From contig NZ_CP021645.1 of NCBI RefSeq assembly GCF_006384975.1, forward strand, positions 3,810,001 to 3,874,000: a stretch of DNA of 64,000 bases, given 5' to 3'. The notes below the pieces were generated by a model that was given only the letters and a program-made list of their open reading frames with translations, searched no databases and was not told the origin of the DNA. Numbering within the stretch: position 1 is the stretch's first letter; every line of letters starts with the position of its first letter. Made by a program: the position numbers and the translations under genes. This DNA comes from Pseudomonas oryzihabitans. GTDB lineage: Bacteria; Pseudomonadota; Gammaproteobacteria; Pseudomonadales; Pseudomonadaceae. This document shows positions 3 through 16,616 of the stretch, piece by piece.

Positions 3-3000
3 GCCAAGGGCACCCTGTCCGCGGCCGGTCTAGACCTCCAGGCCGGCAGTCTGGCCAACGCCGGCGGTACCCTGGTGAGCCGTGGCGCCCTGAGCGTGAC
101 CACCAGCGGTCTGCTAGACAACAGCGCCGACGGCCTGCTCAGCGCGGCCACCACCCTCGATGTCACGGCCGGCACCTTGGATAACGCGGGCGGTAGCCTG
201 CTGGCCAAGGGTGCGGCGACGCTCACCACCGGGCAGCTCGACAACACGGCCAAGGGCCTGATCAACAGCCAGGCCAAGCTGACCCTCACCGCCGACCACC
301 TGGACTCCAGCAATGGCGGCGAAGTCTCGGCCAAGGGTGACCTGCAACTGACCCTGGGTGAACTCAAGCAACAGGGCGGTCGCCTGATCGGCGAAAGTAC
401 CCTGGTCCTAGACCTGGGGCGTAGCGGCGGTACCGGCAACCTCGACAACACCGGTGGTCTCATCGCCAGCAGCGGAGCCCTGGGCTTCGCCCACCTGAAT
501 CAGGTCACCAACACCGGTGGCGAGATCAGCAGCGCCCAGTCTTTCGACCTCATTGCCCGGGCGCTGGATAACAGCAAAGGCAAACTCATCAGCCAGGGCC
601 TGCTCAAGGTCCAGGCCGGCCAACTGACCAACGACGGTGGCCTGCTTTCCGGTTGGCAGGGCCTGACCGTCACCGGCGGCAACCTGAGCAACCGCCAGAG
701 CGGCACCCTGTCGAGCAAGGCCGGCGACCTCACGGTCGCCCTCAGCGGCACCCTGGAAAACGGCGACAACGGCGCCCTGGTCAGCCAGGGTGCGCTCGCT
801 GTCACCGCCGGCAACCTGAACAACACCGGTGGCTTCCTCTCCAGCAGCGGCGCCCAGACCCTGAGTGTGACCGGTACGCTACAAAACGGCACCAAGGGCC
901 TGATCGACGCCGGGACGGGCCTGACCGTCAACGCCGGCCAGTTCAGCAACGCTGGCGGCCTCACCCAGGCCAAGCAGGCGCTGAGCGTCAACACCGGCAA
1001 CCTGGATAACCGTGGTGGCACCCTCAATGGCCAACAGACGGTCACCCTCGACCTGCTCGGCGCCCTCACCAACACCAATGGCGCCGTACTGGCCCAGGGC
1101 GACCTGCTGCTCAAGCGCGCCACCCAGGTCAGCAATGCCCAGGGTCGTCTCAACAGCGGGGGCCTGCTGACCCTATTGGTCGGCGGCCTGGACAATAGCA
1201 ATGGCGGCACCCTGGCCAGCCAGAGCGAGCTGAGCATCACCGCCAGCGGCCAGGTCAGCAATGGCGGCGACGGCCTGCTCGCCAGCCAGGGCGGGGCCCT
1301 GAGCGTCACCGCCGGCGGTCTCGACAACAGTGGCGGCACCTTGCAGAGCGCCACCGGCCTAACCCTCGCCACCGGCTCCGGCACGGTAGGCAACGCGGGC
1401 GGCAAGCTCCTTGCCCAGAACGGCGACCTCAGCATCACCGCCGGCAACCTGGACAACCGCGGCGGTATCCTGGCCAGCCTCCAGGGCGCCTTCATCGCCG
1501 GCATCGGCGGGCTGCTGGCCAACGGCGGCCAGGGCCAGACCGGTGGCACCATCCAGGCACAGCGCCTGGACCTCAACGCCGGGACCCTGAGCAACTACAA
1601 CGGCAAGCTCACCGCCCTGGGCGGCGATGCCCTGTTCCAGATCGGTAGCCTGGACAACCGCAACGGCAGCCTCTACGGCAAGGGCCTGGTGCGCGTCCGT
1701 GGTGGCAGCTTCGATAACAGCGGTGACAACGACGGCCAGGTCTTCGGCAACCAGATCGACTTCAGCCTGAGCGGCGCCCTCAACAACCGCCTGGGCATCA
1801 TCGAAAGCACCAGCACCCTGAGCCTGTCCGCCGCCAGCCTGGACAACACCAATGGTCGACTGCGCGCCCTGGGCAGTGGCGGTACCACGCTACTCAACCT
1901 CGGCGGCACCCTGGACAACACCAACGGCCGGCTGGAAAGCGCCAACCAGAACCTGCAACTCAACCTCGGCGGCCTCATCAACGCCAATGGCACCCTGCTG
2001 CACGTCGGCAACGGTACCTTCGGCCTGGGCCTGCCCCTGCTGCAGAACGCTGGCGGCAGTGTCGTCAGCAACGGCACCCTGACCCTGAACGGCAGCAGCT
2101 GGACCAACAGCAGCACCCTGCAGGTGGCCAACCTGGTGGTCAACGTCGACAACCTGACCCAGACCGGTAGTGGCCAACTGCTCGCCCGCAACAGCTTCAG
2201 CGGCAACGGCGGCAACTGGACCAACGACGGCCTCATCGCCAGTGGCGGCGCCTTCAACCTGCACCTGGGCGGTACCTACCAAGGGGCGGGCCGGCTGAGC
2301 AGCGCTGGTGACTTCACCCTGGGCGCCGGGCAATTGCTGCTCGACAACCCCAACGCGCGCTTGAACGGCAGCGGCACCACCAACATCAACATCGGCGGCC
2401 TGCTGCGCAACCGGGCGCGAATCTCCGCCGCCGGCGACTTCAACCTCAGCGCCGGACAGGTGGACAACCAGGGCACCTTGGGCGCTGCGGGCAACCTGTC
2501 GATCACTACCGCCAACCTGGCCAACCAGAACAGCAGCCTGATCTTCAGCGGCGGCAACATGGGGCTGTGGGTCGGTGACTTCACCAACCGCTATGCCGAC
2601 GTCTACAGCCTGGGCGACCTGTCGATCGCGCGCTCAGGCGACGGCAGTTGGGCGAACAGCATCGTCAACCGCTCCGGTACCCTGACCAGCGACGGCAGTC
2701 TGTGGCTCGCGGCCAGCACCATCCAGAACGTCCATGACATCCTGGCCGTCAACAATATGGGCGTCTACACCGGCCAGATCACCGAGCTGCCCTGCGGCTA
2801 TGGTGCCGGCGACTGCGACGGCGGCAAACGAAACCACGTCTGGCAGGTCCTGCAGCGTGACAAGCTCGAAGTGACCCAGGCCAGTGCCGCGTCCAGCATC
2901 ACCGCCGGCCGCAACCTGATGGTGAACGGTGGCGACCTGCTCAACAGCAGCAGCACCCTCGCGGCCGGTGGCTCCCTCACCGCCAACGTCAACAACCTCT

Positions 3001-6000
3001 ACAACCAAGGCGTCGAGACCGGCGATACCCAGACCACCCGGGTGTTCATTTCCGAGCGCACCCGCAAGGCTGGCGCTTGGTACGACACGGCCAACGATTT
3101 CAATGATCGCTACTGGTACCAGAGCCCCAACTACAATGCCCAGGACCTGAGCGGCCTGGGCGCGGCGATGAGCAAATTCATCGCCATGACCGAAAGCGAG
3201 CAGACCGCCTACCGCAAGACCGAACGGCTCTCCACCGGCGACCAGAGCTATGCCGCGGTCATCCAGGCTGGCGGTGCCGTCAACGTGCGGGCCAACAACA
3301 ACATCGACAACAGCGTGGTGCGTCCCGGCTACACCTACGTCGGTGGTGGCCGCCGCACCGACACCAGCGCCCCGGGCACCGCCTACGCCACGGTCGTCAC
3401 CCTCAACCCCCAACTACCCGCCAACCTGGCCCAACAGCAGGTCAATCCCACCACGCTTCCCGGCTTCAAACTGCCCACCGGGCAGAACGGTCTGTTCCGC
3501 CTCAGTGGCCAACAGAACAGTGACACGGACATTAAAATCGGCAGCCAGGTCCAGTGGCTGACCAGTAGCCAAGTCACCGTCGACAATCAGATCGGTGCCC
3601 AGAACACGACCTATACCGCGGGCCGTACCCAGGATACCTCCAAGGCCCTGGAGAGCAGTCAGGTAGCGGCTATCACCCCGCTGCAGGTGCAAAAACACAC
3701 CAACAGTCCCCTGGCCAACCAGGTAGCGCTCGATGGCGTGATGTCCACGCAGCCCACTACTCAGACGCTGCTGTCCGCCCAGCTCGCCGCGCCCTCTACC
3801 CTGACTGGCAAGGTCGCGCTCGATAAGACGCCGCAAGCGGCCAAGGCGATGGATGCGACCACCAGCCAACAGCGCGAGGCCACCGTCGCCGAGGGATTGC
3901 TCAAGGACGTCAGTACCCAAGGCGTCACCACGCCCATGGTCTCCGTGGCCCTGCCCACCACCGTCGGCCATGACCTGCCGCACCGCTACCTGGTGGAAAC
4001 CAACCCGGCGCTGACCGACCTCAAGCAATTCCTCAGCTCCGACTACCTGCTGGGCAACCTCAACTACGACCCGGACACCAGCTGGAAGCGCCTGGGCGAT
4101 GGCCTCTACGAACAGCGCCTGGTGCAGCAGGCCATCGTCGCCCGCACCGGGCAGCGCTTCATCGACGGCCTGACCAGCGACGAAGCCCAGTTCAAGTACC
4201 TGATGGACAATGCCATCGCCAGCAAGCAGGCGCTGGGCCTCAGCGTGGGCGTCGGCCTGACCGCCGAGCAGGTGGCGGCCCTGACCCACGACATCGTCTG
4301 GATGGAAGACCAGGTGGTGAACGGCCAGCACGTACTGGTCCCGGTGCTCTACCTGGCCAACGCCAACAATCGCCTATCGCCCAACGGCGCTCTCATCCAG
4401 GGCAGCGACGTCACCCTGATCGCCGGCAACGACCTGAACAATGCCGGCACCCTCAAGGCCACCAACAGCCTCAGCGCCACGGCCACCAATAACTTGGTCA
4501 ACAGCGGCCTGATCCAGGCGGGTGATCGGCTGAGTCTGTTGGCCGGCGATAACTTGACCAATCGTGCTGGCGGCATCCTGTCCGGCCGCGATGTCGACCT
4601 GACGACGATCCGGGGTGACATCCTCAACGAGCGTACCGTCACCAGCCACCAGAGCGCCTCGGGCGCCAACAGCTGGCGCGAGGACTTCGCCGACAGCGCG
4701 GCACGCATCGAGGCGGCCAACAACCTGACGGTGCAGGCCGGTCGTGACTTCAGCAACGTCGGTGGCGTTCTGAGCAGCGGCCGCGACCTGAGCATCACTG
4801 CCGGTCGCGACGTCAACCTGAGCAGTGCCCAGACCCAGACGGGCCGCAGCAGCGGTACCCAATTCAATACCTCCAGCATCACCCAGCTGGGCAGTAGCAC
4901 GACGGCCGGCCAGAACCTCAGCATCCACGCCGGTCGAGACCTGAGCGCCACGGCCAGCACCCTCAGTGCGGGCAAGGATCTGGACCTGAGTGCCAAGCAC
5001 GACCTGACCCTTAGCTCCGCCGTTGACGAAAGCCACAGCTACAGCACGAGCAAGAAGGTCACCAGCAAGGAAGACCACGTCAGCCAGCAGGGCACCAGCC
5101 TGACTGCTGGAGGCGCGGTCACGCTGAGTGCCGACCATAATCTCAAGCTCGTCGCGAGTTCCGTCACGGCCGGCACCGAGGCCTATCTCTATGCCGGCAA
5201 GGACCTGGACATCCTGGCCGCGACCAACAGCGACGACTCCTTCTTCTCCAAGACCAAGAAGGGCTCTTTCGGTCGCAAGAGCAGCCAGATGGCTGAAAGC
5301 TCCAGTGACCTTGCGGTTACCTCCTCTCTCTCTGCCGGGACCAAGCTCACTCTCTCTGCCGGGCAGGACATCAACACCCAGGGTGCACAGCTGTCCGCCA
5401 AGGGGCTGCTCCGCGCCGATGCTGGCCGCGACATCAATCTCGACGTGGCGGAAAACAGTGCCAGTAACGCGACGGCCACGTCGAAGAAAGGCTTCTTCTC
5501 CGGCAAGGCCAACAGCGCCTCCAGCAGCCAGACGACCGTCACCAGCACCACGCTCAACGCCGACAGCATCAAGCTCACGGCCGACAACGACATCAATCTC
5601 AGAGCGGCGGCGCTACGCGCGAACAATGCCGTACAACTGGACGCCGGGCGCGACATTACCCTCGGTACCGCCCAGGAATCGTCCTCCTCCAGCCAGGCCA
5701 GCAGTTCGAGCAAGCTGACGCAGCACTGGACCGGCTCCCTGACCCAGACGCAAAAAGCCCAGGGCAGCCAGGAGGCGTCCACCCAGGCCATCGGCAGCAG
5801 CATCAGCGCTGGCAGTCTGAACATGCACAGTGGCCGGGATACCACGATCAGTGGCAGTACGGTCGTTGCCGACAAGGACATCCGCATCGATGCCGGTCGC
5901 AACCTGAGCATCGTCAGCGCCCAGGATAGCGACGCCTCCAGTTCCAGCGGCAAGAATCGCAAGGCAGGTGAAATCGGAACCTGGTGGCAGGGCGCCACCG

Positions 6001-9000
6001 GCGTGGTCTCCACCAAGCAGAACAGCCAGGAAAACAGCACTCGCCAGGTCGGCAGCCAGATCGCTTCCCTGGGCGGCAACGTTTCCCTCAGCGCCGGTGA
6101 ACACTACACCCAGACCGCCAGCCAAGTGGTCGCGCCCCAGGGCAACATCGCCATCGCGGCTAAGCAGGTCGATATCCAGGCCGGCTACGACACCCTCAGC
6201 GCGGATCACAGCGCCAGCTCCAACCGCACGGCGGTAGGGGGCTCGGTGAACATCCCCCTGGTGAACGCCGTTCGCGATATCCAGCAGATGAAGGCTGCCG
6301 CGGGCAAGACCAAGGATCCACGCATGCTCGCCCTGGCCGCAGTGAACGCCAGCATGAACGCCGGCGCGGCGGTCGACAGTGCACAGAGCCTGGCAAACGG
6401 CGAGCTGACCGGCATCAAGGTCAGCGTCAACCTGAGTAACAGCCAGAGCAAGCACCAGAGCCACGAGTCCGGCCAGAACGTGGTCGGCAGCAGTATCGCC
6501 GCCGGTGGTGACGTCAGCATCACTGCCAAAGGCGCGGGCAAGGACAGCCACATCAACATCGTCGGCAGCGACATCAATGCCGGGCGCGATGTGGCACTCA
6601 AGGCCGATGGCGATATCAACCTGGTATCCGCGCAAAACACTGCCGTTCAGGAGGGCAGCAACAGCAACAGCGGCTGGAGTGCCGGGGTTGGCTTCAACCT
6701 GGGGCAAAAGAACGGATTTACGATTGATCTTGCCGCCAACAAGGGCTGGGGCGACTCCAAGGGCCATAGTGTCACCCAGACCAACACCCACATCACTGCC
6801 GGCAAAGGCGTCCAGCTTGTCAGTGGCAACGACACCAACATCCGTGGTGCCGTGGTCAGTGGCGATCAGGTGCGTGCCGACGTGGGCGGTGATCTGAACA
6901 TCGCCAGCCAGCAGGACCGCAACGACTACAAGTCGCGACAGCAGAGTGCCAGTGCAGGCGTCAGCCTCTGCATACCGCCGTTCTGCTATGGCGCCTCATC
7001 GGCCGGCGGGTCCGTCAGCCAGCAGAAGATCGAGAGCACCTACGCCAGTGTCATCGAGCAGTCCGGTATCAAGGCGGGTGACCACGGCTTCCAGATCAAG
7101 GTTGGCGGAAATACGGACCTTAAAGGCGCCAGCATTGCCAGCAGCGACAAGGCCGTCGCCGAAGGCAAGAACCGTCTTACTACCGGCACGCTGACGCATT
7201 CCGACCTCGAGAACAAAGCCGAATACAAGGGCTCCAGCATCAGCCTGAGCGGCAGCTACAGCACCGCTGCGCACGATAAGAAAGGCAACGTAATCAAGGA
7301 TAAGGACGGAAAACCTGTCCAGGACGCCGCTACAAACCTAGGCACCCCCATCGCGCTAAGTGCCAGTGGCAAGGACAAGAGCACTACGTCTAGCGGTATC
7401 AGTGGTGGCGCTATCACCATCACCGACGAGGCGAAGCAGCAAGCGCTTACTGGGCAGACCGCTGAGCAGGCCGTTGCCGAGGTCAATCGAGACGTCTCCA
7501 GTGACAGAGACGGCAGTAACGCTCTCAAACCGATCTTCGATCGAAAGGAAGTCGAAGCGGGCTTTAAGATCACCGAGCAGTTCGTGCGGAACGTGGGCAC
7601 CTTCTTGGAGCAGCGCTCGCTCGTCTCGACTGATGCCAAGAAGCAGTTGGCCGAGGAGAACGCCAAGCCTGCTGAACAGCGCGACCCAGCAAGAATCGCT
7701 CAGCTTGAGAACCTCATCCAAAGCAACGCCACCTGGGAGATTGGGGGGCTGGGGCGCACCTTGGTTTCCGCGATCAGTGGTGCGGCGGGGGGCAATGTCA
7801 CGGGGGGTGGAGCCCAGCTGCTTCAGGGCGCCGCGGTAAGTTATCTCCAAAGCCTGGCCGCCGAACAGGTCAAGGGCATTGCCGATGAGTTGAAATCCGA
7901 AACCGCACGTGCGGCCTTGCATGCCATCGTCGGCTGCGCGGGCGCCGCTGCGCAAAGTCAGAGCTGCGGTGCCGGCGCCTTGGGCGGCAGCGTAAGCGTG
8001 GTGCTGAACAACCTGATCGATCAATTGAGTGATCAAACTGCCGAAGGCATGACGGATGCCCAGAAGCAGAATCGCCTGAACCTGATTGGCAGCCTAGTGG
8101 CGGGTATTACCGCTGCTGCGGGTGGCGAGGCTGCGGTCGCGGCGAATGCGGCGCAGATCGAAACGGGAAATAACTATCTACACCGCACCGAGGCGCAACG
8201 ACAAGCTGTTCTGGAGCGTAGGCAGAAGGATGGCAGCTTAACGACGGATGAGGCTAAAGAGCTTGCTGATATCCGTAAGGTTGATAAGGCACGTGACCAA
8301 GCAATTCGAGATATTTGTACCAAAGGGAACAAATCTGATGGTGCGTGCTCGGCCTTGGTAGCCGAAGCCAAACAAGCGTTGGCGTCTTATGATGAGCCTA
8401 TTAGCTACAGTCTTGCGTGGAAAAGCGTCTATCCAAAGGACGCAGCAAATGTAAGCAAGATCCTGGAAGGCCTCGATGAGGGGAACATCACACGTGATGG
8501 TGCTATAGCGGCGATAGCGAAGGAGTCAGGCAAGAGCTGGGATGAAGTAGCGGAGCGATATGACACGGTCATGGCGGTCCAGTCAGTTGTTGCCGCCTTG
8601 GCGGGAGCGTATGGTGGAGGAGGTGTTCTTGGCGGTGCAAAAAGTTCCGGTACATCGGGTGCAAAAGCGGCGCCTAAGACTGAAACTTACTTTAGAGTAG
8701 AAGGCGGTGGTTCAGGTTCAGCGACGAGCCAAAATCGCATTACTGTGAATGCGGATGGCAGTATTAAAATCAACCCTGGGTGCTCTGGGCAGCTTTGTGT
8801 AAGTGTAGGGAGTGCTGAGCATGCTAGCTACTTCTTAACTAACAAACGTCCGGATGGGTCGGTAGTAGTTTTCGAGGTAGATGCCGGCCTTCATAAGCAG
8901 ATAATGGATAGTTCGATACCTCAGCGACCGGTTCCGGGCATTCCACGAGATCCATCGGCACCCAAAATCGTAGATCCGAACCAACCGGGTATTGCTTTAG

Positions 9001-9095
9001 AGCTGCCCAAGATATGGGAGTCGTTACTTGAAAAGCATTCAAGCAATGCACGTGTATACTCTCACGAAGAGTTTTTGAAGGAGTTTGGGAGATGA
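3..9095 (+). CDS. cdiA: CdiA-type filamentous haemagglutinin / contact-dependent inhibition toxin exoprotein (5' partial)
   Basis: The frame is open to the left window edge, so the signal peptide and TPS secretion domain are missing; 3,030 residues are visible. Counting residues from codon 75: about 1-950 are degenerate FHA-1 beta-helix repeats (patterns like LDNxxG, LSxxAGxLxN). About 980-1440 is the non-repetitive middle part where CDI receptor-binding regions lie, and it includes the conserved LPHRYLVETNP segment. From about 1440 come FHA-2 haemagglutinin repeats (AGRDLSIxAGRDxxL). About 2550-2690 is an Ala/Gly-rich pre-toxin domain ending in IETGNNYL, a variant of the VENN/ENNYL boundary. 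The last 300 residues, with visibly lower GC, should be the entry domain and toxin; the final 130 (from TYFRVEGG) are not a toxin family I can name with certainty. The stop overlaps the next gene by 4 bp, the usual cdiA-cdiI arrangement. The transporter gene cdiB is not in the window. Confidence 0.93.
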   Translation, partial: AKGTLSAAGLDLQAGSLANAGGTLVSRGALSVTTSGLLDNSADGLLSAATTLDVTAGTLDNAGGSLLAKGAATLTTGQLDNTAKGLINSQAKLTLTADHLDSSNGGEVSAKGDLQLTLGELKQQGGRLIGESTLVLDLGRSGGTGNLDNTGGLIASSGALGFAHLNQVTNTGGEISSAQSFDLIARALDNSKGKLISQGLLKVQAGQLTNDGGLLSGWQGLTVTGGNLSNRQSGTLSSKAGDLTVALSGTLENGDNGALVSQGALAVTAGNLNNTGGFLSSSGAQTLSVTGTLQNGTKGLIDAGTGLTVNAGQFSNAGGLTQAKQALSVNTGNLDNRGGTLNGQQTVTLDLLGALTNTNGAVLAQGDLLLKRATQVSNAQGRLNSGGLLTLLVGGLDNSNGGTLASQSELSITASGQVSNGGDGLLASQGGALSVTAGGLDNSGGTLQSATGLTLATGSGTVGNAGGKLLAQNGDLSITAGNLDNRGGILASLQGAFIAGIGGLLANGGQGQTGGTIQAQRLDLNAGTLSNYNGKLTALGGDALFQIGSLDNRNGSLYGKGLVRVRGGSFDNSGDNDGQVFGNQIDFSLSGALNNRLGIIESTSTLSLSAASLDNTNGRLRALGSGGTTLLNLGGTLDNTNGRLESANQNLQLNLGGLINANGTLLHVGNGTFGLGLPLLQNAGGSVVSNGTLTLNGSSWTNSSTLQVANLVVNVDNLTQTGSGQLLARNSFSGNGGNWTNDGLIASGGAFNLHLGGTYQGAGRLSSAGDFTLGAGQLLLDNPNARLNGSGTTNINIGGLLRNRARISAAGDFNLSAGQVDNQGTLGAAGNLSITTANLANQNSSLIFSGGNMGLWVGDFTNRYADVYSLGDLSIARSGDGSWANSIVNRSGTLTSDGSLWLAASTIQNVHDILAVNNMGVYTGQITELPCGYGAGDCDGGKRNHVWQVLQRDKLEVTQASAASSITAGRNLMVNGGDLLNSSSTLAAGGSLTANVNNLYNQGVETGDTQTTRVFISERTRKAGAWYDTANDFNDRYWYQSPNYNAQDLSGLGAAMSKFIAMTESEQTAYRKTERLSTGDQSYAAVIQAGGAVNVRANNNIDNSVVRPGYTYVGGGRRTDTSAPGTAYATVVTLNPQLPANLAQQQVNPTTLPGFKLPTGQNGLFRLSGQQNSDTDIKIGSQVQWLTSSQVTVDNQIGAQNTTYTAGRTQDTSKALESSQVAAITPLQVQKHTNSPLANQVALDGVMSTQPTTQTLLSAQLAAPSTLTGKVALDKTPQAAKAMDATTSQQREATVAEGLLKDVSTQGVTTPMVSVALPTTVGHDLPHRYLVETNPALTDLKQFLSSDYLLGNLNYDPDTSWKRLGDGLYEQRLVQQAIVARTGQRFIDGLTSDEAQFKYLMDNAIASKQALGLSVGVGLTAEQVAALTHDIVWMEDQVVNGQHVLVPVLYLANANNRLSPNGALIQGSDVTLIAGNDLNNAGTLKATNSLSATATNNLVNSGLIQAGDRLSLLAGDNLTNRAGGILSGRDVDLTTIRGDILNERTVTSHQSASGANSWREDFADSAARIEAANNLTVQAGRDFSNVGGVLSSGRDLSITAGRDVNLSSAQTQTGRSSGTQFNTSSITQLGSSTTAGQNLSIHAGRDLSATASTLSAGKDLDLSAKHDLTLSSAVDESHSYSTSKKVTSKEDHVSQQGTSLTAGGAVTLSADHNLKLVASSVTAGTEAYLYAGKDLDILAATNSDDSFFSKTKKGSFGRKSSQMAESSSDLAVTSSLSAGTKLTLSAGQDINTQGAQLSAKGLLRADAGRDINLDVAENSASNATATSKKGFFSGKANSASSSQTTVTSTTLNADSIKLTADNDINLRAAALRANNAVQLDAGRDITLGTAQESSSSSQASSSSKLTQHWTGSLTQTQKAQGSQEASTQAIGSSISAGSLNMHSGRDTTISGSTVVADKDIRIDAGRNLSIVSAQDSDASSSSGKNRKAGEIGTWWQGATGVVSTKQNSQENSTRQVGSQIASLGGNVSLSAGEHYTQTASQVVAPQGNIAIAAKQVDIQAGYDTLSADHSASSNRTAVGGSVNIPLVNAVRDIQQMKAAAGKTKDPRMLALAAVNASMNAGAAVDSAQSLANGELTGIKVSVNLSNSQSKHQSHESGQNVVGSSIAAGGDVSITAKGAGKDSHINIVGSDINAGRDVALKADGDINLVSAQNTAVQEGSNSNSGWSAGVGFNLGQKNGFTIDLAANKGWGDSKGHSVTQTNTHITAGKGVQLVSGNDTNIRGAVVSGDQVRADVGGDLNIASQQDRNDYKSRQQSASAGVSLCIPPFCYGASSAGGSVSQQKIESTYASVIEQSGIKAGDHGFQIKVGGNTDLKGASIASSDKAVAEGKNRLTTGTLTHSDLENKAEYKGSSISLSGSYSTAAHDKKGNVIKDKDGKPVQDAATNLGTPIALSASGKDKSTTSSGISGGAITITDEAKQQALTGQTAEQAVAEVNRDVSSDRDGSNALKPIFDRKEVEAGFKITEQFVRNVGTFLEQRSLVSTDAKKQLAEENAKPAEQRDPARIAQLENLIQSNATWEIGGLGRTLVSAISGAAGGNVTGGGAQLLQGAAVSYLQSLAAEQVKGIADELKSETARAALHAIVGCAGAAAQSQSCGAGALGGSVSVVLNNLIDQLSDQTAEGMTDAQKQNRLNLIGSLVAGITAAAGGEAAVAANAAQIETGNNYLHRTEAQRQAVLERRQKDGSLTTDEAKELADIRKVDKARDQAIRDICTKGNKSDGACSALVAEAKQALASYDEPISYSLAWKSVYPKDAANVSKILEGLDEGNITRDGAIAAIAKESGKSWDEVAERYDTVMAVQSVVAALAGAYGGGGVLGGAKSSGTSGAKAAPKTETYFRVEGGGSGSATSQNRITVNADGSIKINPGCSGQLCVSVGSAEHASYFLTNKRPDGSVVVFEVDAGLHKQIMDSSIPQRPVPGIPRDPSAPKIVDPNQPGIALELPKIWESLLEKHSSNARVYSHEEFLKEFGR

Positions 9096-9697
9096 CTTGG
9101 CGGCAGTCGTTGGTTGATGATTTATGGAGCGGCGAAAAAAGTATATGTTTTTTTGTTCATTCAGGGAAATGCTTCTGGGTTGCAGATGATAAGTTTAACT
9201 TTAGCTTGGATGCGGAGAGAGATTATCGGGCATACCTTGATAAGGGGCATATAAATCTGGAGCAATATACGTCAGCATGCATTTCGTTCAGAGGAGGGAT
9301 TCTTAAGCTAACTGCTGAGAGTTTTTTGAAGTACTTAATGGCAGAGGGGCGGCAGGTGTTATCAAAGCAAGAGCTTAAAGATATTTTCACGTGCGGGCTT
9401 GGTTTGAGCGAATCTTTGTATGGAAAAATCGAGGGGTACTATTTTTCCGGAGCAGAATTAAGCGCGAAAGATTTTGGTGAGGCTAATGCTGTTGCCTCCA
9501 GGCTTCCGATGTTCTATGTGAATTTCGATCGAAAAATTTACATGCACATGGATTATGGTCGGGGGCATGAAGACTTGGCCTACTCAGACTGGTTCGCCAA
9601 GTGTTCGGACTTTTGTTATTTAGTGCCAGATAGGGAGAAGTATTGGGTTTTAGGGGGTATGGACTTTTGGAAATATAGGTTTTTACAGTTGATATAG
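9092..9697 (+). CDS. cdiI: Candidate CdiI immunity protein, cognate to the upstream CdiA toxin
   Basis: A 201-residue soluble protein with no signal peptide or membrane segment. The start ATG overlaps the cdiA stop (ATGA), and an AAGGAG Shine-Dalgarno lies 7 bases upstream inside cdiA, so translation is coupled. Position, small size and strongly AT-rich codon use compared with the cdiA body all fit a CDI immunity gene, which binds and blocks the toxin delivered by sibling cells. The sequence is rich in aromatic and acidic residues (WVLGGMDFWKY near the C-terminus) but I do not recognise a named immunity family. Function is inferred from context only. Confidence 0.8.
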   Translation: MTWRQSLVDDLWSGEKSICFFVHSGKCFWVADDKFNFSLDAERDYRAYLDKGHINLEQYTSACISFRGGILKLTAESFLKYLMAEGRQVLSKQELKDIFTCGLGLSESLYGKIEGYYFSGAELSAKDFGEANAVASRLPMFYVNFDRKIYMHMDYGRGHEDLAYSDWFAKCSDFCYLVPDREKYWVLGGMDFWKYRFLQLI

Positions 9698-9938
9698 GGT
9701 GGGAAAGCAACAGGGAGTGCTCTCGGCAATTTAGGAAGAGGCGTGCTGACAGAGGCTGATTTCGCTCAGAACAGAATAAATCTGATAAGCGTTGGGAGAC
9801 GGAATAAAACGTGAGCTGAAGGGGGGCGACCAAGCTGGCCCAGTTGCGGTGCGCTTTTCGAGAACTGATCCTGCGTCAGCACGACCGGACTCGTTGGTAA
9901 TTGACTACTCAATTGGTGGAGAGAAAATGCGTAAATGA
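9698..9938 (+). pseudogene. Remnant of an orphan CdiA C-terminal toxin module, frameshifted
   Basis: There is no start codon or ribosome binding site. Directly after the immunity stop the same frame reads GGKATGSALGNLGRGV, then LTEADFAQNRIN, and stops at 9812-9814. From 9813 the neighbouring frame stays open to 9938 and ends with LVIDYSIGGEKMRK. Together these look like the beginning and the end of a deleted, frameshifted toxin domain whose stop lies 9 bases before the next immunity gene. That it is a CdiA-CT relic is inferred from position and from the YSIGG ending it shares with the relic before 11636. Confidence 0.6.
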
Positions 9939-9947
9939 GGCAGGGCA

Positions 9948-10265
9948 ATGAGCATTGAGCAACAAGTGGAAATCTTAAATGCACTCGTGAAGATCATGCA
10001 TGGCTCTGCGCATGGGCAGTATGACGAGATGTGCTGTGAATTTGGGTATGAGATTTATGATGGAGGATGGTCTGCAGACTCTAAATATTCGTTCGTTCGA
10101 GATGGCTTAATTGTCAGCGAGCTTTTAGATGATCCTGAAGATAGGGTTTCTGATTTTGTTCATAAATTACACGAGCTCATGAAGTCACATACGGGCGGTG
10201 ACTGGAAAAAATTTGTGCTTGCTATTGGGCCTAGTGGTAAAGCGAATACGAAATTTATTTATTGA
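9948..10265 (+). CDS. Orphan immunity protein, YezG/DUF600-like
   Basis: A 105-residue acidic soluble protein. A GAGG ribosome binding site lies 7 bases before the ATG. The layout, with a long helix followed by DDPEDRVSDFVHKLHELMKSH and a C-terminal strand WKKFVLAIGPSGKANTKFIY, resembles the YezG/DUF600 immunity family associated with polymorphic toxins. The gene is AT-rich relative to the genome. It follows a broken toxin-tail fragment, so it would be an orphan immunity gene that could protect against a toxin this strain no longer makes. The family assignment is from memory of the pattern and is moderate. Confidence 0.65.
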   Translation: MSIEQQVEILNALVKIMHGSAHGQYDEMCCEFGYEIYDGGWSADSKYSFVRDGLIVSELLDDPEDRVSDFVHKLHELMKSHTGGDWKKFVLAIGPSGKANTKFIY

Positions 10266-10571
10266 TCAGGTGTAAAAGAAACTGGGACTGCTGTAGTTCC
10301 TCTGCAAGGAATTGTTTCCTTCGAGAGCGGAAAGACATTTGAGAGCCTCAATGCTTCGGAACAGAAAGGACCGAAAGCTATTCAGAAGCTTGGTTACGAT
10401 GTTCACGTGTCCTTGTGGTCGAGTGAGAAAGGCATGTCTGGCCTACCTAATGCTGAGTTCAAAATTCAGGGACTAGAGAAGGTGAAATTTTGGTCGCATG
10501 ATGGTCCTTCTGGTGAGAGCTGGCCAAGCTTGGCGGTCTGGATTAAAAAGGTTTGGATTGATGAAGAATAA
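10266..10571 (+). pseudogene. Open-frame relic of unknown identity, no start codon, CDI-associated
   Basis: Immediately after the preceding immunity stop the same frame stays open for 101 codons (SGVKETGTAVVPLQGIVSF... to ...AVWIKKVWIDEE) with no usable start near its 5' end; the first ATG is at codon 55. Base composition matches the AT-rich immunity genes. It ends directly at a hairpin terminator, so it is likely the original 3' end of the array. It may be a toxin tail or a beheaded immunity gene; I cannot tell which. Confidence 0.5.
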
Positions 10572-10572
10572 A

Positions 10573-10599
10573 AATAGCCCCGGCATTTCCGGGGCTATT
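10573..10599 (+). terminator. Hairpin terminator at the end of the first orphan CDI block
   Basis: An 11-bp perfect stem AATAGCCCCGG / CCGGGGCTATT with a 5-nt loop begins one base after the relic's stop codon. The downstream T tract is poor (cgtttc), while an A-rich run precedes the stem. It could therefore act as a terminator in either direction. Confidence 0.65.
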
Positions 10600-10606
10600 C
10601 GTTTCA

Positions 10607-10720
10607 CTAGTGGTACTCACCAAACAGCTCCGCATGCCTCCGGATACGTTTCCGCTCGTTGACCTCAAGCCCGCCTGTTGTAATCAGTAGCCGCGTAGCT
10701 TGATCCCCGAATGCGTTGAT
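10607..10720 (-). pseudogene. 3' fragment of an unknown gene on the opposite strand
   Basis: The minus strand reads an open frame INAFGDQATRLLITTGG, then LEVNERKRIRRHAELFGEYH, and stops at 10607-10609. There is no start, and the frame is lost just upstream where cdiA-like sequence begins. The strongly charged ending looks like a genuine protein C-terminus rather than noise. I cannot assign a family. The reversed orientation next to CDI scraps suggests a recombination junction. Confidence 0.35.
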
Positions 10721-10742
10721 CCCTGTTGTGGGACAGTTTCTA

Positions 10743-10769
10743 AGTGATCAAACTGCTGAAGGCCTGACG
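10743..10769 (+). pseudogene. Scrap of the cdiA pre-toxin region
   Basis: This 27-bp stretch encodes SDQTAEGLT and differs at two positions from cdiA 8028-8054 (SDQTAEGMT). It lies immediately before the transposase unit and is a leftover of a second copy of the conserved cdiA 3' region. Such copies are the recombination arms that let orphan toxin modules exchange with the main gene. Confidence 0.6.
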
Positions 10770-10774
10770 TGGGA

Positions 10775-10797
10775 CAATAGGGGACAGACCACGTTTT
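10775..10797 (+). repeat. Left inverted repeat of the RAYT unit
   Basis: A 23-bp sequence with core GGGGACAGACCACG, the exact reverse complement of 11538-11560. It lies 40 bases upstream of the transposase start. Confidence 0.85.
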
Positions 10798-10837
10798 ATC
10801 GATTTAGGATTACGGAGCTCTATGGAGGGAGATCCTT

Positions 10838-11533
10838 ATGCCACGTCGAGCACGCGTTTCTTTGCCAGGATGTTCACTTCATCTGATTCAGAGAGGTAAC
10901 AATCGCTCAGCGTGCTTTTACGCTGACGAGGACTGTCTCTTTTATTTGGATGTATTGGTGGATCAAGCAAAGAAGCATGGATGTGCGATCCATGCCTGGT
11001 GCTTGATGACCAACCATGTTCATTTGTTGGTCACGCCCGAAAGCCCTGATAGTTCAGGGCTCATGATGAAGGGACTAGGGCAGCGTTACGTACAGTATGT
11101 GAATCGCACTTACCGCCGTAGCGGTACGCTGTGGGAAGGTCGCTTCCGCTCCTGCCTCATGCAGGAGGAAGCTTATGTGTTGGCTTGTTATCGATACATT
11201 GAGATGAACCCTATCCGCGCCTGTATGGTTGAGCACCCGGCGGAATATCGCTGGTCCAGCTATCGGGTTAACGCACAGGGTGAGCCTTCGGTGCTGGGTT
11301 GCTCCCACCCGCTCTACCAAGCGTTGGGTCGAGATGAGTTGCTCAGGGCTGAGGCTTATAGGGAGTTGTTCCGTTATCAGCTAGATCCAGGGCTAGTTGA
11401 TCAAATACGTGCTGCGACGAATGGGAACTACGCACTGGGAAGTCCGAAGTTTTTAGCCGAAGTGGAGGCCGCGTTGGGGCGAAGAGTCACAAAAGGTAAG
11501 CCAGGGCGCCCTAAGAGCGCGTCCGATCTCTAG
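10838..11533 (+). CDS. REP-associated tyrosine transposase, Y1_Tnp (IS200-like) family
   Basis: A 231-residue member of the single-tyrosine HUH transposase family. It shows the HUH motif in TNHVHLLV (about residues 63-70), the N-terminal signature GCSLHLIQRGNNR, and the catalytic-tyrosine helix AYVLACYRYIEMNPIRA (about 113-129). The conserved EYRWSSYR follows. These enzymes nick and join single-stranded DNA at REP-like hairpins. The start is backed by a GGAGGGAG ribosome binding site 6 bases upstream. Length is normal and the frame is intact. The basic C-terminal tail (RRVTKGKPGRPK) may bind DNA. Confidence 0.9.
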   Translation: MPRRARVSLPGCSLHLIQRGNNRSACFYADEDCLFYLDVLVDQAKKHGCAIHAWCLMTNHVHLLVTPESPDSSGLMMKGLGQRYVQYVNRTYRRSGTLWEGRFRSCLMQEEAYVLACYRYIEMNPIRACMVEHPAEYRWSSYRVNAQGEPSVLGCSHPLYQALGRDELLRAEAYRELFRYQLDPGLVDQIRAATNGNYALGSPKFLAEVEAALGRRVTKGKPGRPKSASDL

Positions 11534-11537
11534 TAGA

Positions 11538-11560
11538 AAAACGTGGTCTGTCCCCTATTG
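11538..11560 (-). repeat. Right inverted repeat of the RAYT unit
   Basis: The exact reverse complement of 10775-10797, starting 4 bases after the transposase stop. It could also form a transcript hairpin with the left end. Confidence 0.85.
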
Positions 11561-11635
11561 GGTCATATAGAGTACAGTATTGGTGGTAATCGTCCGGTTG
11601 AGGTTGTTTTCTATAATAGGCCGGGAGGCTTTTAA
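11561..11635 (+). pseudogene. 3' scrap of an orphan CdiA toxin module
   Basis: Just outside the transposase unit the frame GHIEYSIGGNRPVEVVF, then YNRPGGF, stops at 11633-11635, immediately before the next immunity ATG. Its YSIGG motif is shared with the toxin-tail relic at 9898-9938 (IDYSIGGEKMRK). That makes both likely C-termini of related toxin domains. Everything upstream has been lost to the transposase unit or to deletion. Confidence 0.6.
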
Positions 11636-11947
11636 ATGAATGAAGATCAGATATATTTAAATATCTCTGAATTGCTTTTTAGTATCGCGCCTTCTGACGT
11701 GGCTGCAATTAAGATGTCTGCAGCGCTCTCTCCAGAAACAGGTTCTTGCAAGCTAGAGTACGATGCTGTAAGGCCGGATGGTTCTGTATTTTGGTTAGTG
11801 GGCGGAGGGGAAGTGAATAGTAAAATGTTAGACCTTTTGGTGGGTTTGCGTAGAATTTATTTGGATAGAAACAGTGACTGCCTTAAATGTATTGCTGAGC
11901 TTGACGTCGTGAAAGGAAAGATTAAAGTTGATTTCCTTTATTCCTGA
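11636..11947 (+). CDS. Second orphan immunity protein, YezG/DUF600-like
   Basis: A 103-residue soluble protein. A GGGAGG Shine-Dalgarno lies 7 bases before the ATG, inside the preceding toxin-tail scrap. An N-terminal helix is followed by VFWLVGGGEVNSKMLDLL and a final strand pair ending KIKVDFLYS, the same architecture as the protein at 9948-10265. Sequence identity between the two appears low, as expected for immunity alleles of one family specific for different toxins. AT-rich codon use contrasts with the chromosomal genes that follow at 12194. Confidence 0.65.
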   Translation: MNEDQIYLNISELLFSIAPSDVAAIKMSAALSPETGSCKLEYDAVRPDGSVFWLVGGGEVNSKMLDLLVGLRRIYLDRNSDCLKCIAELDVVKGKIKVDFLYS

Positions 11948-11960
11948 TATATGTGGGCTT

Positions 11961-12200
11961 GGTGAGCTTGGAAAGGCGCACGGGTACTCCACCGGCAGCC
12001 TGACTACCTCCGACATCAAGAACGAGGCGCGCTACGACGGCTCCAGTGTCACCCTGAGCGGTGGCTACCAGACCGGCGATCAAGGCTCCACCGTCGGTCG
12101 TGGCGCGGATGGCAACGCCCAGGCGGGCGCGCTGGGCAAACCCCTGATTCCTGATCTGTGGGGGAAAAACGTTGGGAGCACTATGAGGTGGCATCAGTAA
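11961..12200 (+). pseudogene. Truncated cdiA fragment (FHA-2 / pre-toxin junction)
   Basis: Composition jumps back to high GC and the frame encodes STGSLTTSDIKNEARYDGSS, then VTLSGGYQTG, homologous to TTGTLTHSDLENKAEYKGSS in the intact cdiA (about 7180-7250). It has no start, is fused in frame to the AT-rich tail of the immunity region, and stops at 12198-12200 in chromosomal sequence, overlapping the 3' end of the minus-strand gene. It marks the right boundary of the CDI island. Confidence 0.75.
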
Positions 12201-13150
12201 CGACTACCTACCTTGGCATTGTATTGAGCGAGCAACTGGTCATAGTCCTGTTGGACGATATGCAAGTCCATATCCAGCTGCACGGGTTTGGCTTTGGCGG
12301 ACCACTGTTGTTGCAGGTTACCGAGGTGTTCCAGCCAGCGTTGCGAAAGAGGTTCTATATCCAGCCAGACGGCTTGGCTACCGCCTACCGAACTCAGGTG
12401 CGGGTAGGCCTGATGGTAGATGTGTGCAGCCTGCCAGATGTGCTGCAGTTCGTCTTGCATCATGGCCAGTTCTGTCGCCGTAATGGTGCCTTCGTCTACC
12501 TGGTCCATGGCACTACGCGCGAGGAGCATGAATTTCAGCGTGTACCAATGTTGGTCATGACCGAAGCGTTGCTCGATCTGGGCAAGCTGCTGTTCGCGTA
12601 ACTGTAGTTGGGCCTTTTCGAAAGCTCGGCGAAAGGGAATCTCGGCTTGTTGCAGCGTGCGCAGGCGTTGCTCGAACGCTGCGTCCAGTTGCCTAGCGCG
12701 AGAGACGTCGATGTCTGGCGCGCGCTGGACATAGAAGGCTTCGATGGCTTCCGCCTCCGGGCGCAACGCGTCGAAGGCGGCGATATAGGCCCGTCCGGTC
12801 GCTTCCAGCGAGTTGGTGGGCACCTGGTCGGAGTCTAGATAGAAGAAGCGCAGGCATGCCGAAAGGTGCTGTCCACTATTGGGAGATATATGGGCAGAAC
12901 CCATGTCGAAACCTGGAAAGTAAATAGCCGTCCTGCTTACTGGTCCTTGCTCGATGACTTGGCGCGAGAGCTTTTGGTACTTCGCTAGTCTGTCCTTGAA
13001 TGTGGTGTCCATATAGGCCAGGCAAGGGCCGGAACGCTCGGTGCCAGCGGTGGCGTAGGACATCTCAAGAGGCTTGACCATGCCCTTGAGCAGCAAGATG
13101 ACACCGAGAAAGAGGCCAACCGCGACGAGGAAGGTACGGGTGCTGATCAT
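12194..13150 (-). CDS. Membrane-anchored DUF3829-like protein of the hscC operon
   Basis: 318 residues. One N-terminal hydrophobic segment (about residues 5-22, FLVAVGLFLGVILLLKG) can act as an uncleaved signal anchor, with the rest in the periplasm. The body is helical and rich in Gln/Glu/Ala, with the layout typical of DUF3829 (YiiG-like) proteins; no enzyme motif is visible. Its ATG overlaps the stop of the J-domain gene by 4 bp, so it is the last gene of an hscC / J-protein / DUF3829 operon and may be a client or partner of that chaperone pair. The family call is from overall pattern. Confidence 0.65.
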   Translation of the reverse strand: MISTRTFLVAVGLFLGVILLLKGMVKPLEMSYATAGTERSGPCLAYMDTTFKDRLAKYQKLSRQVIEQGPVSRTAIYFPGFDMGSAHISPNSGQHLSACLRFFYLDSDQVPTNSLEATGRAYIAAFDALRPEAEAIEAFYVQRAPDIDVSRARQLDAAFEQRLRTLQQAEIPFRRAFEKAQLQLREQQLAQIEQRFGHDQHWYTLKFMLLARSAMDQVDEGTITATELAMMQDELQHIWQAAHIYHQAYPHLSSVGGSQAVWLDIEPLSQRWLEHLGNLQQQWSAKAKPVQLDMDLHIVQQDYDQLLAQYNAKVGSRY

Positions 13151-14907
13151 GGCTGCTCACCCTGTTGCGGGGGATACCACTGGGGTGGTCGGCAAGGCGT
13201 GTCCGTTTCGGCCCGTGCTGCGCACAGGCGTTCAGGCCAGGCTTGCAGGCCATAACCAGGGGGTACAGGACGATAGTTGGCGCTAACGGTCATCACCGTG
13301 ATCAGGGAGGCCGCTAGGCCGATGGCGATGCCGAGCCATACTTCGCGCCGCACGGATGCCGGAGGCCCCGTTAACCATTGGACTGCTAGTTGTAAATGCC
13401 GGGTTCGGCTCAAGAGCGCCATGACCACAAGGATGGTGCTGTACACCAATAGGGGGCCGAGCCCCTGCACGAGATACAGCAAGCCTCCCAGCAACCCGCT
13501 CGGGAGGCTTTCGCGGATGGGCAACGGAGGTGGGCGACGCAGGCTCAGCCAGTGTCCGTAACGCTCCTGCAGCCGGGTATCGAGGCGCCAGTGGCCAAGA
13601 CCGAGGGATCGGCAAAACCTGCTCAGTAGCCAGCCGAAGGTGCCTAGCACGATGGCGATGAGCACCCAGATCAGCAGGGTGTCATAGAGGTTGCCACCGA
13701 GCCGGTAGAAGTCGCGATAAGCGATGAAAGTGCTTGCGCTTAGGATCGCCAGTACCAGGGGTACGACCGGGGGGGTCCGATGTAGCGGTCTCCAGGTTCT
13801 GGGAGCGAGGCCCGGTAGCTCGACCAAGAGTTCGGGATAAAACTGCTGGGCAGTCTGCACGAGCTTTTCGCAAAGCGCCCAGTCCTCCGTGTTGAAGTGT
13901 GCAGCCATCTTCATCCGCTCATCTTCGGTCGCGGGTAGAAAGAGGAAGCGTGCTGCGCGCCTAGCGCTGGAGTCGCTTTTTTGGTTGGCGATGCGCTGTT
14001 GTTCCGCCAGGAAGATGCTCCGATGCTTGCGGGCCAGGAGTTGGCTCCAATAGCGGTCAGCGCAGCGCAATGGCGGGCGGGGCTGTTTCCAGCCCAGCTG
14101 ATTGCTCAGGGCTTCAAACAGCTCGTCGGACCAGAAGGACGACTCGAGCAGCGTCTGGGCAATGCTGTCGTGCAGCCATTGGGCATTGTCTAGCGACTGC
14201 AACCAGGATTGCTTGCCCAAGTGTTGGCAGAGGTCGAGAAAGGATTGCGTATCGGCTCCGCGTAGAGACTCCGCCATTCCTGTCTGGGCGTAGCCCTTAA
14301 GGTTGCGCAGGACGTTTTGCAGCGCCTCTCGAGAGAGGTGATCATTTTGCCAGGGCGTAAGCCAATGAAAGTGGTTCGTGACCTGTTCGGTGAGCCTTGT
14401 GTTTTCGATATTGAACGCCTGGCAATGGTGGAGAACGATGTCTTCGAATTCCCTGGCGCAGGCGTAGCGTTGCGCCTGCTCGAGACGATCATCGAAGCAA
14501 TTGGCATCCAGTCCGTCTGCCAGTCGCTCTGCGAGTTGCCAGGCCGGCGTAGGGCCTGCAGCCGGGATGGGGTCGGGCAGTGGCACCAATAGCGGCGCGC
14601 TGTCGGCTGTGTCGTCCTGACGCGCATCGGCCAGTTGCTCGGCAAGTTGCCAGGTAGGCGTAGGACCTGCAGCCGGGATGGGGTCGGGCAGTGGCACCAA
14701 TAGCGACACGCTATCGGCTGAGCGATCAACTGTATCGTCCTGGCGGGCATTGGCCCATTCGAGTGCCTGCTCGTACGCCTCGCGCAACCGCTGGAAGCCC
14801 TCGGGGTCTTCGTCCGGGCGGTAGCGCTTGAGCAGGGCTGCGTATTGGCGCTTGATGGTACGCGCATCGGCCTCGTGCGAGATGCCCAGGACGGACCAGC
14901 AGCTCAT
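13147..14907 (-). CDS. J-domain membrane co-chaperone of HscC (degenerate HPD motif)
   Basis: 586 residues. Residues 1-50 form a short J domain (WSVLGISHEADARTIKRQYAALL) in which the canonical HPD reads RPD (RYRPDEDPEGF). A linker follows with a near-identical tandem duplication of 37 residues (unit containing LLVPLPDPIPAAGPTP), then a helical region. The C-terminal third has about four hydrophobic segments. It resembles DjlB/DjlC, the membrane J proteins that stimulate the Hsp70 HscC. The start overlaps the hscC stop (ATGA), showing translational coupling. The missing His of HPD would normally abolish ATPase stimulation, but some DjlB-like proteins of pseudomonads carry RPDEDP, so it may be a subfamily trait. 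Confidence 0.75.
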   Translation of the reverse strand: MSCWSVLGISHEADARTIKRQYAALLKRYRPDEDPEGFQRLREAYEQALEWANARQDDTVDRSADSVSLLVPLPDPIPAAGPTPTWQLAEQLADARQDDTADSAPLLVPLPDPIPAAGPTPAWQLAERLADGLDANCFDDRLEQAQRYACAREFEDIVLHHCQAFNIENTRLTEQVTNHFHWLTPWQNDHLSREALQNVLRNLKGYAQTGMAESLRGADTQSFLDLCQHLGKQSWLQSLDNAQWLHDSIAQTLLESSFWSDELFEALSNQLGWKQPRPPLRCADRYWSQLLARKHRSIFLAEQQRIANQKSDSSARRAARFLFLPATEDERMKMAAHFNTEDWALCEKLVQTAQQFYPELLVELPGLAPRTWRPLHRTPPVVPLVLAILSASTFIAYRDFYRLGGNLYDTLLIWVLIAIVLGTFGWLLSRFCRSLGLGHWRLDTRLQERYGHWLSLRRPPPLPIRESLPSGLLGGLLYLVQGLGPLLVYSTILVVMALLSRTRHLQLAVQWLTGPPASVRREVWLGIAIGLAASLITVMTVSANYRPVPPGYGLQAWPERLCAARAETDTPCRPPQWYPPQQGEQP

Positions 14908-16616
14908 TCGAAGCTACCCTTTTCCAGATGGTCCAGCTCTTCATTGAGGCGGAGCCGCAGGGTGCGAATCTCATGGGCATCTTGGTGTTCCAGGGTGTGG
15001 GTGAAATGCGTGGCCATGGCATCGATGCGCTGGCGCAATTCGCCGCGTCCTTCCTGGTACAGCCGCTCCAGACGAGCTAGCAACAGGGTGTTGGGTTGTT
15101 GCTCGCGCGGATGGATCTTGAGTTCGGCGAGCGCGGCGAGACGGGTCGCGATCTCCGCGGGTGACAGGACACCGGGATTGTTGGTGATGACGACCTGGCG
15201 CTTTTCCCCCGTGAGCGGGATATGGGCTTCGGCCTCGAGTAGGCCATTAGTGTCATAGGTGAAGCGCACGTCGACCTCCGCCTGGCCTGCCGGCAGGGGC
15301 GGAACCTGAACCTCCAGTTCGCCCAGGAAGATGTTTTCGCTGACTCTACGGCTCTCGCCTTGGTAGATCCCAAGCCGAACGTGCGTCTGCTGATCGCGTA
15401 AGGTGACTACGCGCTTCACCTTGCTTACGGGGACCACGCAGTTGCGCTCGATGATGGGTAGGTAGTGCCCGGACTCGTAGCCATAGCCACAGGCGACGCT
15501 GGTCTCGATGCCCAAGGAGTAGGGGCAGACATCGGTCAGGACCACTTCCTCCAGCGCGGCATCGCGTGCTTTCAGGCCAGCCTGGACCGCGGCGCCCAGC
15601 GCCACGGTTTCGTCCGGGTTTAGCTGGATGGACGGGAAGCGGCCGAACAGGCTGGCGGCCAGCCGCCGGATTAGAGGCATGCGGGTGGTACCGCCAACCA
15701 GCAGGATCTCGTCCAGCTCGCTGGCCTTGATCCGAGCATCGCGCAGGGCGGTCTCGATAGGGGCCCTTAGGCGGGCGAGCAGAGGCGCATAGAGGTTGGC
15801 CAACTGGGTCTGGTCGAAAGACTGTTGCCACTGCGCGTTGTCATGGCGGAGGGTGAAGGTGGCCTGGCTTTCCTGGCCGAGCGCCTTGCGCACGCGCTCG
15901 GCTTCGCGGCGGAGCCGACCGAACAGCTGCGGGTCGGCCAGATCGAGAGTGCTGGTCGGCTGGGGTACGTCGGCTTGCGCGGCGACGAAGGCCTGCACCA
16001 GGACGGTATCGAAGTCTTCGCCCCCCAGGAAGTTGTCGCCCGCACTGGCGCGCACCTCCATGACGCCGTCGAAGAGTTCGAGGATGGAAACGTCGAAGGT
16101 GCCGCCGCCCAGGTCGAAGACTAGGAAGGTACTGGTACTGTCGCGCTGGTGCAGCCCATAGGCCAGGGCGGCTGCAGTGGGTTCGTTGATCAGGCGTTCG
16201 ACCTTGAGACCGGCCAGTTCGCCGGCGATGCGCGTGGCCTTGCGCTGGGCATCGTTGAAGTAGGCCGGGACGCTGATGACGGCTTCCTCGACCGGCTCGC
16301 CGAAATGTCGCTCGGCGTCTTCCCGTAGGCTACGTAGCACCATGGCCGAGAGTTCTTCGGGGCGAAACTCCCGATTGCCCAGGGTGGTGGTCCGGGCGCT
16401 ACCCATGTAGCGCTTGAACAAGGCGGCGGTCTGGCGGGGGTGGGTCTGTAGGCGTTCGCGTGCGGCCCGGCCGACGATGATGCGGTCCTCATCATCCAGA
16501 CCGACCACGCTCGGCGTGAGCAGCTCGCCTAGGGCATTGGGAACGAGGTGGGGGGCGCCATCACGCCAGACGGCAATCAGGCTGTTGGTGGTGCCAAGGT
16601 CGATGCCGACGATCAT
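14904..16616 (-). CDS. hscC: HscC-type Hsp70 chaperone
   Basis: 570 residues, shorter than DnaK (about 640) and matching HscC. The nucleotide-binding domain shows [14 protein letters not shown] (phosphate 1, residues 4-17), [14 protein letters not shown] (phosphate 2) and [12 protein letters not shown] (adenosine motif). The substrate-binding domain starts near residue 380 and the lid is truncated. HscC is a specialised cytoplasmic Hsp70 that works with its own membrane J proteins rather than with DnaJ/GrpE. It is first of the three overlapping genes. No heat-shock promoter is obvious in the roughly 150 bases upstream. Confidence 0.92.

Follow-up and report, generated by a model that had tools for sequence, protein, structure and literature searches.

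What is left behind when a contact-dependent growth inhibition (CDI) locus changes its toxin, and are the immunity genes that remain still in use? These questions are raised by positions 9698-12200 of a 64,000-nucleotide stretch of Pseudomonas oryzihabitans DNA (the window, C1:3810001-3874000 of a one-contig 5.36-Mb genome). This array of orphan toxin and immunity segments lies directly 3' of an intact cdiBAI locus, on the same (+) strand. It contains no whole extra toxin, and two immunity genes, ImmA and ImmB, are open. The best explanation, to which a probability of about 0.75 is given, is that the array is a graveyard at the 3' end of the CDI locus that arose by sequential displacement. Incoming modules, each made up of a CdiA C-terminal toxin domain (CT) and its immunity gene, would have recombined into the pre-toxin region of cdiA and shifted the older ones downstream. 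Displacement would have cut the front off the old toxins and left the toxin tail and immunity gene in place.

At least three toxins other than the current one are represented in the array (A, C and B; Table 1). All three match intact CdiA-CTs elsewhere, and those that match A and B have a relative of ImmA or ImmB, respectively, behind them. Relic A is 82-87% identical to toxin ends in P. cuatrocienegasensis and Larsenimonas and 77-80% identical to those in two further Pseudomonas. At the DNA level (9775-9950), it is 85% identical over 191 columns to an intact CdiA-CT/immunity junction. The intact homologs have an open toxin frame, and the product of the gene directly behind it shares 77-88% identity with ImmA over 108 residues. 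The window copy has lost its front and its final residues and has a frame change near the start of the relic. Among the named carriers of ImmA relatives, four of five are Pseudomonas. The toxin B tail aligns with a P. paralactis frame that is cut by a contig end and matches PF13930 at E 2e-40. On this contig (L024/L028), toxin A and an ImmA relative stand in tandem behind toxin B and an ImmB relative (41% identical). A search of ~5.8 billion proteins found only two ImmB relatives other than ImmB itself.

Table 1. Features of the array and of the CDI locus that precedes it. Positions are those of the window unless a locus is named.
Feature	Position	Strand	Remarks
cdiB	L005:2302-4080		named by position and by eye
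cdiA, 3' part of intact gene, toxin domain at end	75..9095	+	start left of window; Fil_haemagg_2 E 3e-73, DUF6862
cdiI, cognate immunity of active CdiA-CT	9092..9697	+	51-64% homologs directly 3' of same CT in 3 other genomes
Relic A, frame-shifted, 5'-truncated PF13930 CdiA-CT tail	9775..9938	+	77-87% to intact CTs
ImmA, open, 105 aa, EsaG/DUF600-fold immunity (modelled)	9948..10265	+
Toxin C, fragment of another CdiA-CT	10284..10484	+	within open frame 10266-10568; in frame behind ImmA
SUKH immunity gene tail, fused in frame to toxin C	10479..10571	+	last 30 residues
SUKH tail, hairpin and linker, shared with second CDI array	10487..10707	+	71% over 224 columns to L006:5676-5896
12-pair G+C-rich hairpin	10572..10600	.	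terminator-like on - strand only; such sites at chance count
27-nt scrap of cdiA pre-toxin region	10743..10769	+	25/27 bases (93%) identical to cdiA 8028-8054
RAYT-like Y1 (HUH) transposase element	10775..11560	+	perfect 23-nt terminal inverted repeats 10775-10797, 11538-11560
Transposase gene of element, open, 231 aa	10838..11533	+	Y1_Tnp E 4.5e-12, 46.6 bits (cut-off 23)
Toxin B, last 22 residues of PF13930 CdiA-CT	11564..11635	+	68% to residues 157-178 of 179-aa frame L024:4749-5288
ImmB, open, 103 aa, EsaG/DUF600-fold immunity (modelled)	11636..11947	+
cdiA body scrap, C-terminal filamentous haemagglutinin (FHA) part	11989..12085	+	73% DNA over 78 bp to own cdiA, E 2e-6; 33 nt 91% to C1:2244997
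31-nt scrap resembling another CdiA C-terminus	12146..12176	+	93.5% to L081:2736-2766

Toxins A and B are both PF13930 nucleases of the EsaD-like class, and their immunities are EsaG-like. PF13930 is over its cut-off in both intact relatives of relic A that were tested (L023 and L029), and the intact toxin A homolog matches EssD (8guo_B, E 2e-7). In their structural models, ImmA and ImmB carry the DUF600/EsaG immunity fold, which is the only one matched at Foldseek E <= 0.001 (6/6 rows each). At the sequence level, neither protein reaches the cut-off of Pfam PF04634 (ImmB E 0.23, 12.0 bits against 21.7; ImmA no match to this family). Sequence searches of the PDB returned only rows judged unrelated for ImmA and nothing at E <= 1 for ImmB. 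From gene pairing, ImmA and ImmB are putative inhibitors of PF13930-type nucleases. In Staphylococcus aureus, EsaD and EsaG are a type VII secretion system nuclease and its DUF600 antitoxin (PMC9616950). The array resembles this system in the EssD match of toxin A and in the modelled fold of both immunities. It differs in that the toxins are CdiA-borne and the immunities have 105 and 103 rather than ~160 residues, with 12-18% identity in structural alignments.

An earlier interpretation made without database searches (the sequence-only reading) had described a decayed orphan toxin/immunity array behind an intact cdiA-cdiI pair, with every extra toxin reduced to a tail or a scrap. Both statements agree with the matches to CdiA-CTs, the open ImmA and ImmB, and the lack of a whole toxin in the array. 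In the comparison set beforehand as a refuting test, relics against CdiA C-termini and small genes against immunity families, the relics match CTs and both small genes have a predicted immunity-family fold. Its count of three intact immunity genes is correct when cdiI is included with ImmA and ImmB, but a further immunity gene, of the SUKH type, is reduced to a tail. The sequence-only reading did not include frame 10266-10568, which holds toxin C and the SUKH tail, or the transposase gene and its element.

Frame 10266-10568 has two origins. Residues 6-77 are 63% identical (67% in a second comparison) to part of an open CdiA frame of 3472 aa in genome G133. The tail is 62-69% identical to the tails of two SUKH-type frames (141 and 147 aa), and the SUKH_5 profile matches it at E 0.002, below the cut-off. 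In the protein search the frame matched two SUKH proteins only, through its tail, and its front is explained by the whole-genome search. The SUKH tail probably marks a fourth module, and the scrap at 12146-12176 gives weak signs of a fifth.

Pre-toxin homology long enough for recombination with cdiA is a feature of many, not all, CDI orphans. In this array only 27 nt of it were found, in line with the earlier claims that a cdiA fragment lies at 10743 and that the pre-toxin sequence persists as short scraps. A second cdiA fragment, claimed at 11961, is a real piece of the cdiA body, but its similarity is detectable only from ~11989. These remains bear on the idea that the relics are a silent archive of spare toxins able to recombine into cdiA for redeployment. 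Passages of Ruhe et al. 2016 (PMC4927057) propose this for orphans that keep cdiA homology and cite an Rhs case. Here the toxins are truncated or frame-shifted and the sole pre-toxin scrap is 27 nt long, which makes redeployment very improbable.

The RAYT-like element ends at the truncation point of toxin B. Its right end is at 11560 and toxin B homology begins at 11564, a gap of ~4 bp. Under sequential displacement, the element would be tied to this junction rather than a late arrival. The transposase scores 67.1 bits against the NCBIfam model REP_Tyr_transpos, below the cut-off of 80, and is therefore called RAYT-like. Within the genome, the 22-nt element end (<= 3 mismatches) occurs at three places, all in its two CDI arrays. 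Two of these are at the window element and one is beside a transposase remnant in the second array (C1:918377). In relatives, the transposase end sequences are dispersed and paired in inverted orientation. One locus (L080, G334:C9:25000-39500) has 13 end motifs in 4.6 kb downstream of cdiA, ten of which form inverted pairs 39 bp apart.

The right side of the element was compared by eye among 25 copies. An open frame of 55-274 codons begins there in nine copies, and eight of these frames run up to where the next one starts. By homology, the frames in the window and in L083 are CdiA pieces without a front; the EndoU toxin domain of the L083 piece is complete. The frame in L073 is a C39 peptidase tail (profile positions 83-124 of 133). 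Six other right-side frames have no Pfam match, and their toxin nature is judged by position only. Among ten frames found behind copies, one belongs to a curated CdiI family (L078:11358-11753, PF24172) and nine are without a match.

Other CDI arrays also carry elements of this kind, oriented like cdiA. The end pattern GGGGACAGAYYWMKTT is present in 201/398 family genomes, and a reversed control pattern gives six hits. A census covered 147 listed places in 82 clusters from 35 genomes, with at most about ten places per genome; these genomes are the first listed, a non-random set of motif carriers, and G264, listed last, is left out. The FHA (PF13332) genes of the census make up at least 52 rows, collapsed by hand, and all nearness counts are lower bounds. 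At least 15/82 clusters (at least 53/147 places) are within 10 kb of a listed FHA-repeat (CdiA-type) gene, compared with 0.41 clusters and 0.7 places expected, an enrichment of 37-fold and ~75-fold, respectively. Nearness was judged by cluster; place by place, 52/53 are within 10 kb and one is at 10.7 kb. All near clusters (15/15; 53/53 places) are downstream of the FHA gene. At least 13 of the 28 genomes with FHA rows have a near cluster (expected 0.42). A slightly looser pattern is present in 5/14 loci from outside the genome that were fetched by the immunity and relic proteins (L012, L015, L032, L033 and L036).

Transposase copies or pieces are co-oriented with cdiA in 23/23 cases from 16 loci, the two own loci included. 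The scan covered 52 loci, many chosen for nearness to FHA rows or transposase hits. Twenty-six have a transposase match, ten of which are uncounted (no CdiA match, E < 1e-6), and six have a CdiA match only. The 31 transposase hits from outside the genome divide into 19 in a locus with a CdiA match (E < 1e-6) and 12 in a locus with none; a few of the 12 show CDI-like frames by eye and are uncounted. The window protein shares 39-87% identity with the transposases that the genome search listed, so these do not derive from one recent insertion.

For module swapping at one end of a huge gene, with no homology at the other end, a transposase family that recurs in CDI arrays, is downstream of and co-oriented with cdiA in every copy counted, and at least sometimes ends at a toxin break is a concrete enzyme candidate. 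RAYT-like Y1/HUH elements could be working parts of CDI diversification, although this is unlikely. Homology at the pre-toxin end would let in a cassette of CT, immunity gene and element, and the right terminus of the element, inside the resident toxin, would set the non-homologous end of the cassette. Cassette entry of this kind would disarm the old toxin, spare the old immunity gene and provide the helper enzyme missing from displacement models. The elements may make displacement junctions or may simply settle there.

Several results weigh against sequential displacement or against a special role of the element. No relative with an earlier state of the array was found: of the 13 genomes of the genus, only their own has ImmA and ImmB, and the DUF3829 gene on the right flank is found in its own genome alone (1/37 relatives searched). 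The order of events in the array is therefore unobserved, and the order proposed here would be a reconstruction. Cognate immunity behind the toxin is seen for A and B, and the immunity tail behind toxin C does not match the gene behind its intact relative. In that relative (G133, L036) the gene is an 87-aa frame and not a SUKH gene, so the toxin C-SUKH fusion probably joins parts of two modules, or else represents a different pairing. Among the truncation points of the array, only that of toxin B has an element. Most motif clusters (67/82) are not near a listed FHA row, which speaks against a motif exclusive to CDI. Against a special role of the element, KOPS-like octamers (FtsK-orienting polar sequences) place both own CDI loci on the apparent leading strand, and fork-dependent insertion would therefore likewise yield one direction. 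Lastly, the ImmA branch of the window has ten nonsynonymous and three synonymous changes, a ratio to neutral of 1.07, so retention for immunity is a possibility at most.

The last three results also bear on a neutral graveyard. In that case the immunities would be open through recent displacement, the element would have settled in dispensable DNA, and its direction would follow from a leading-strand cdiA and the fork-strand choice of HUH enzymes. The near-neutral ImmA ratio, the leading-strand position of both loci and the spread of the motif beyond CDI loci fit this explanation. The enrichment of motif clusters near FHA genes, wholly on their 3' side, does not, nor do the open frames at the right side of nine copies or the 5'-cut CdiA pieces in L083 and the window. 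A neutral graveyard falls a little short of even odds. An end motif exclusive to CDI was considered and rejected, by the cluster count above and by 30 motif loci of 3 kb, one of which has a CdiA match within 1.5 kb and eight a transposase match.

The sequence-only reading had suggested that the array is a stockpile of immunities. In its selected form, selection would keep ImmA and ImmB as protection from nuclease toxins A and B that come from siblings or neighbours. Retention of this kind is already in print for CDI orphans and for the immunity arrays of type VI secretion systems (T6SS), in passages of PMC4927057 and PMC5361080, respectively. Both immunities are open behind toxins that have lost their fronts, and relatives with intact toxins exist. 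ImmA-type genes are conserved between species. All six pairs without the window copy, in which the toxins are intact, have dN/dS of 0.03-0.09, which indicates strong selection, although several dS values are above 1 and some are saturated; pairs with the window copy (n=4) have 0.08-0.18. Open ImmA relatives occur without toxin A in L013 (G282:C10:82988-86302; 61%) and at L030:5986-6315 (72%), so retention without the toxin occurs elsewhere. L013 has no CdiA-type frame in 3.3 kb, and in L030 the ImmA relative is behind another module. The toxin A tail was not found in L013, L025 or L030. The L013 and L030 genes are possible stand-alone immunity genes.

The branch changes of ImmA do not favor a stockpile. 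They were polarised against three outgroups, and 14/32 differences could not be polarised, which gives the test low power. Under neutrality, about 3:1 is expected, close to the 10:3 of the window branch, and 13 neutral changes would leave the frame free of stops with a probability of 0.54. On the branch of the nearest relative, P. cuatrocienegasensis, where the toxin is intact, there are one nonsynonymous and four synonymous changes (ratio to neutral 0.08). Fisher's p for the contrast is 0.047 with two agreeing outgroups, 0.041 with one and 0.077 with three. Branch changes in the toxin A tail are 4:2 compared with 1:0, counts that are uninformative. These small counts point to relaxed constraint on ImmA after toxin loss, and suggest that an orphan immunity gene may be open without being under selection. 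Promoter-like sites in the array are at the level of shuffled sequence. The open genes and the toxin-less relatives of ImmA thus agree with the stockpile proposal, but a working stockpile is no more than possible, and selection for it is rather doubtful. Under sequential displacement, ImmB, and less likely ImmA, may still neutralise nucleases of neighbours.

The array itself belongs to a known kind. Passages of Ruhe et al. (PMC4927057) describe fragmented orphan CT/immunity pairs behind cdiBAI, in the same direction and with intervening transposases, and offer two ideas for them, immunity retention and a silent archive. The array here has the same layout, with intervening transposase and segments homologous to CdiA C-terminal toxins. 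It differs from the arrays described there in that no whole extra toxin is present and the transposase is of a defined, RAYT-like type at a toxin truncation point. Sequential displacement is likewise in print for both CDI and T6SS. In Vibrio cholerae, T6SS orphan immunity arrays are attributed to sequential effector displacement in which the right junction is illegitimate, and the authors report no evidence of a helper that resembles an integrase (PMC5361080, in part). As in those arrays, the old toxin is cut, the old immunity is kept behind the new pair, and the right junction is non-homologous and within the old toxin. Unlike them, the array here belongs to a CDI locus, and an HUH element ends at one of its junctions.

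Repetitive extragenic palindromic (REP) sequences and the RAYT/TnpA-REP HUH transposases are described in sections of PMC6006769, and sections of PMC3390384 report that RAYTs of the P. fluorescens group are mainly stable orthologs. The window element shares the Y1_Tnp domain with RAYTs, and its end sequences may resemble REP sequences: they are dispersed and form inverted pairs in relatives, and occur three times in the own genome. The element differs in its perfect 23-nt terminal repeats, in the presence of several copies in one CDI array, and in its concentration in CDI loci. The terms "contact-dependent", "hemagglutinin" and "CdiA" do not occur in the sections of PMC3390384 consulted. No publication linking CDI with RAYT or REP was found in the open-licence literature, where some papers were judged by title, and a report elsewhere is possible. 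The new part would thus be the repeated presence of RAYT-like elements in CDI arrays, in the direction of cdiA.

The active locus is intact. The cdiA gene is a single open frame (4994 aa in L019) with its stop at 9095. Relatives of CdiI (51-64%) are present in 3/297 other family genomes, and in 3/3 the same toxin domain is immediately 5'; the active CT-CdiI pair is therefore considered real. No Pfam family covers the active toxin domain (~8650-9092) at E <= 1. In sequence searches of the PDB, the active CT has a weak match to cyanovirin-N (E 9e-4) and CdiI has nothing at E <= 1. PADLOC gave no match for six proteins. One cdiI relative (L032, G152:C45:9073-9666), 3' of an open CT frame, has a TAG inside the genome-search match. 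Within the array, 9698-9774 matched only itself among the loci compared, and a reverse-strand frame at ~10606-10738 has no protein-level match among them.

To the right, the array adjoins genes on the - strand (window 12194-16616) that encode a DUF3829 protein and, by eye, DnaJ-like and Hsp70-like frames. The second CDI array of the genome (L006, C1:905000-922000) has several longer toxin frames. These are a C39 peptidase, PF13930 with SUKH, DUF6883 with DUF4926, and one unassigned frame, followed by a further cdiA piece.

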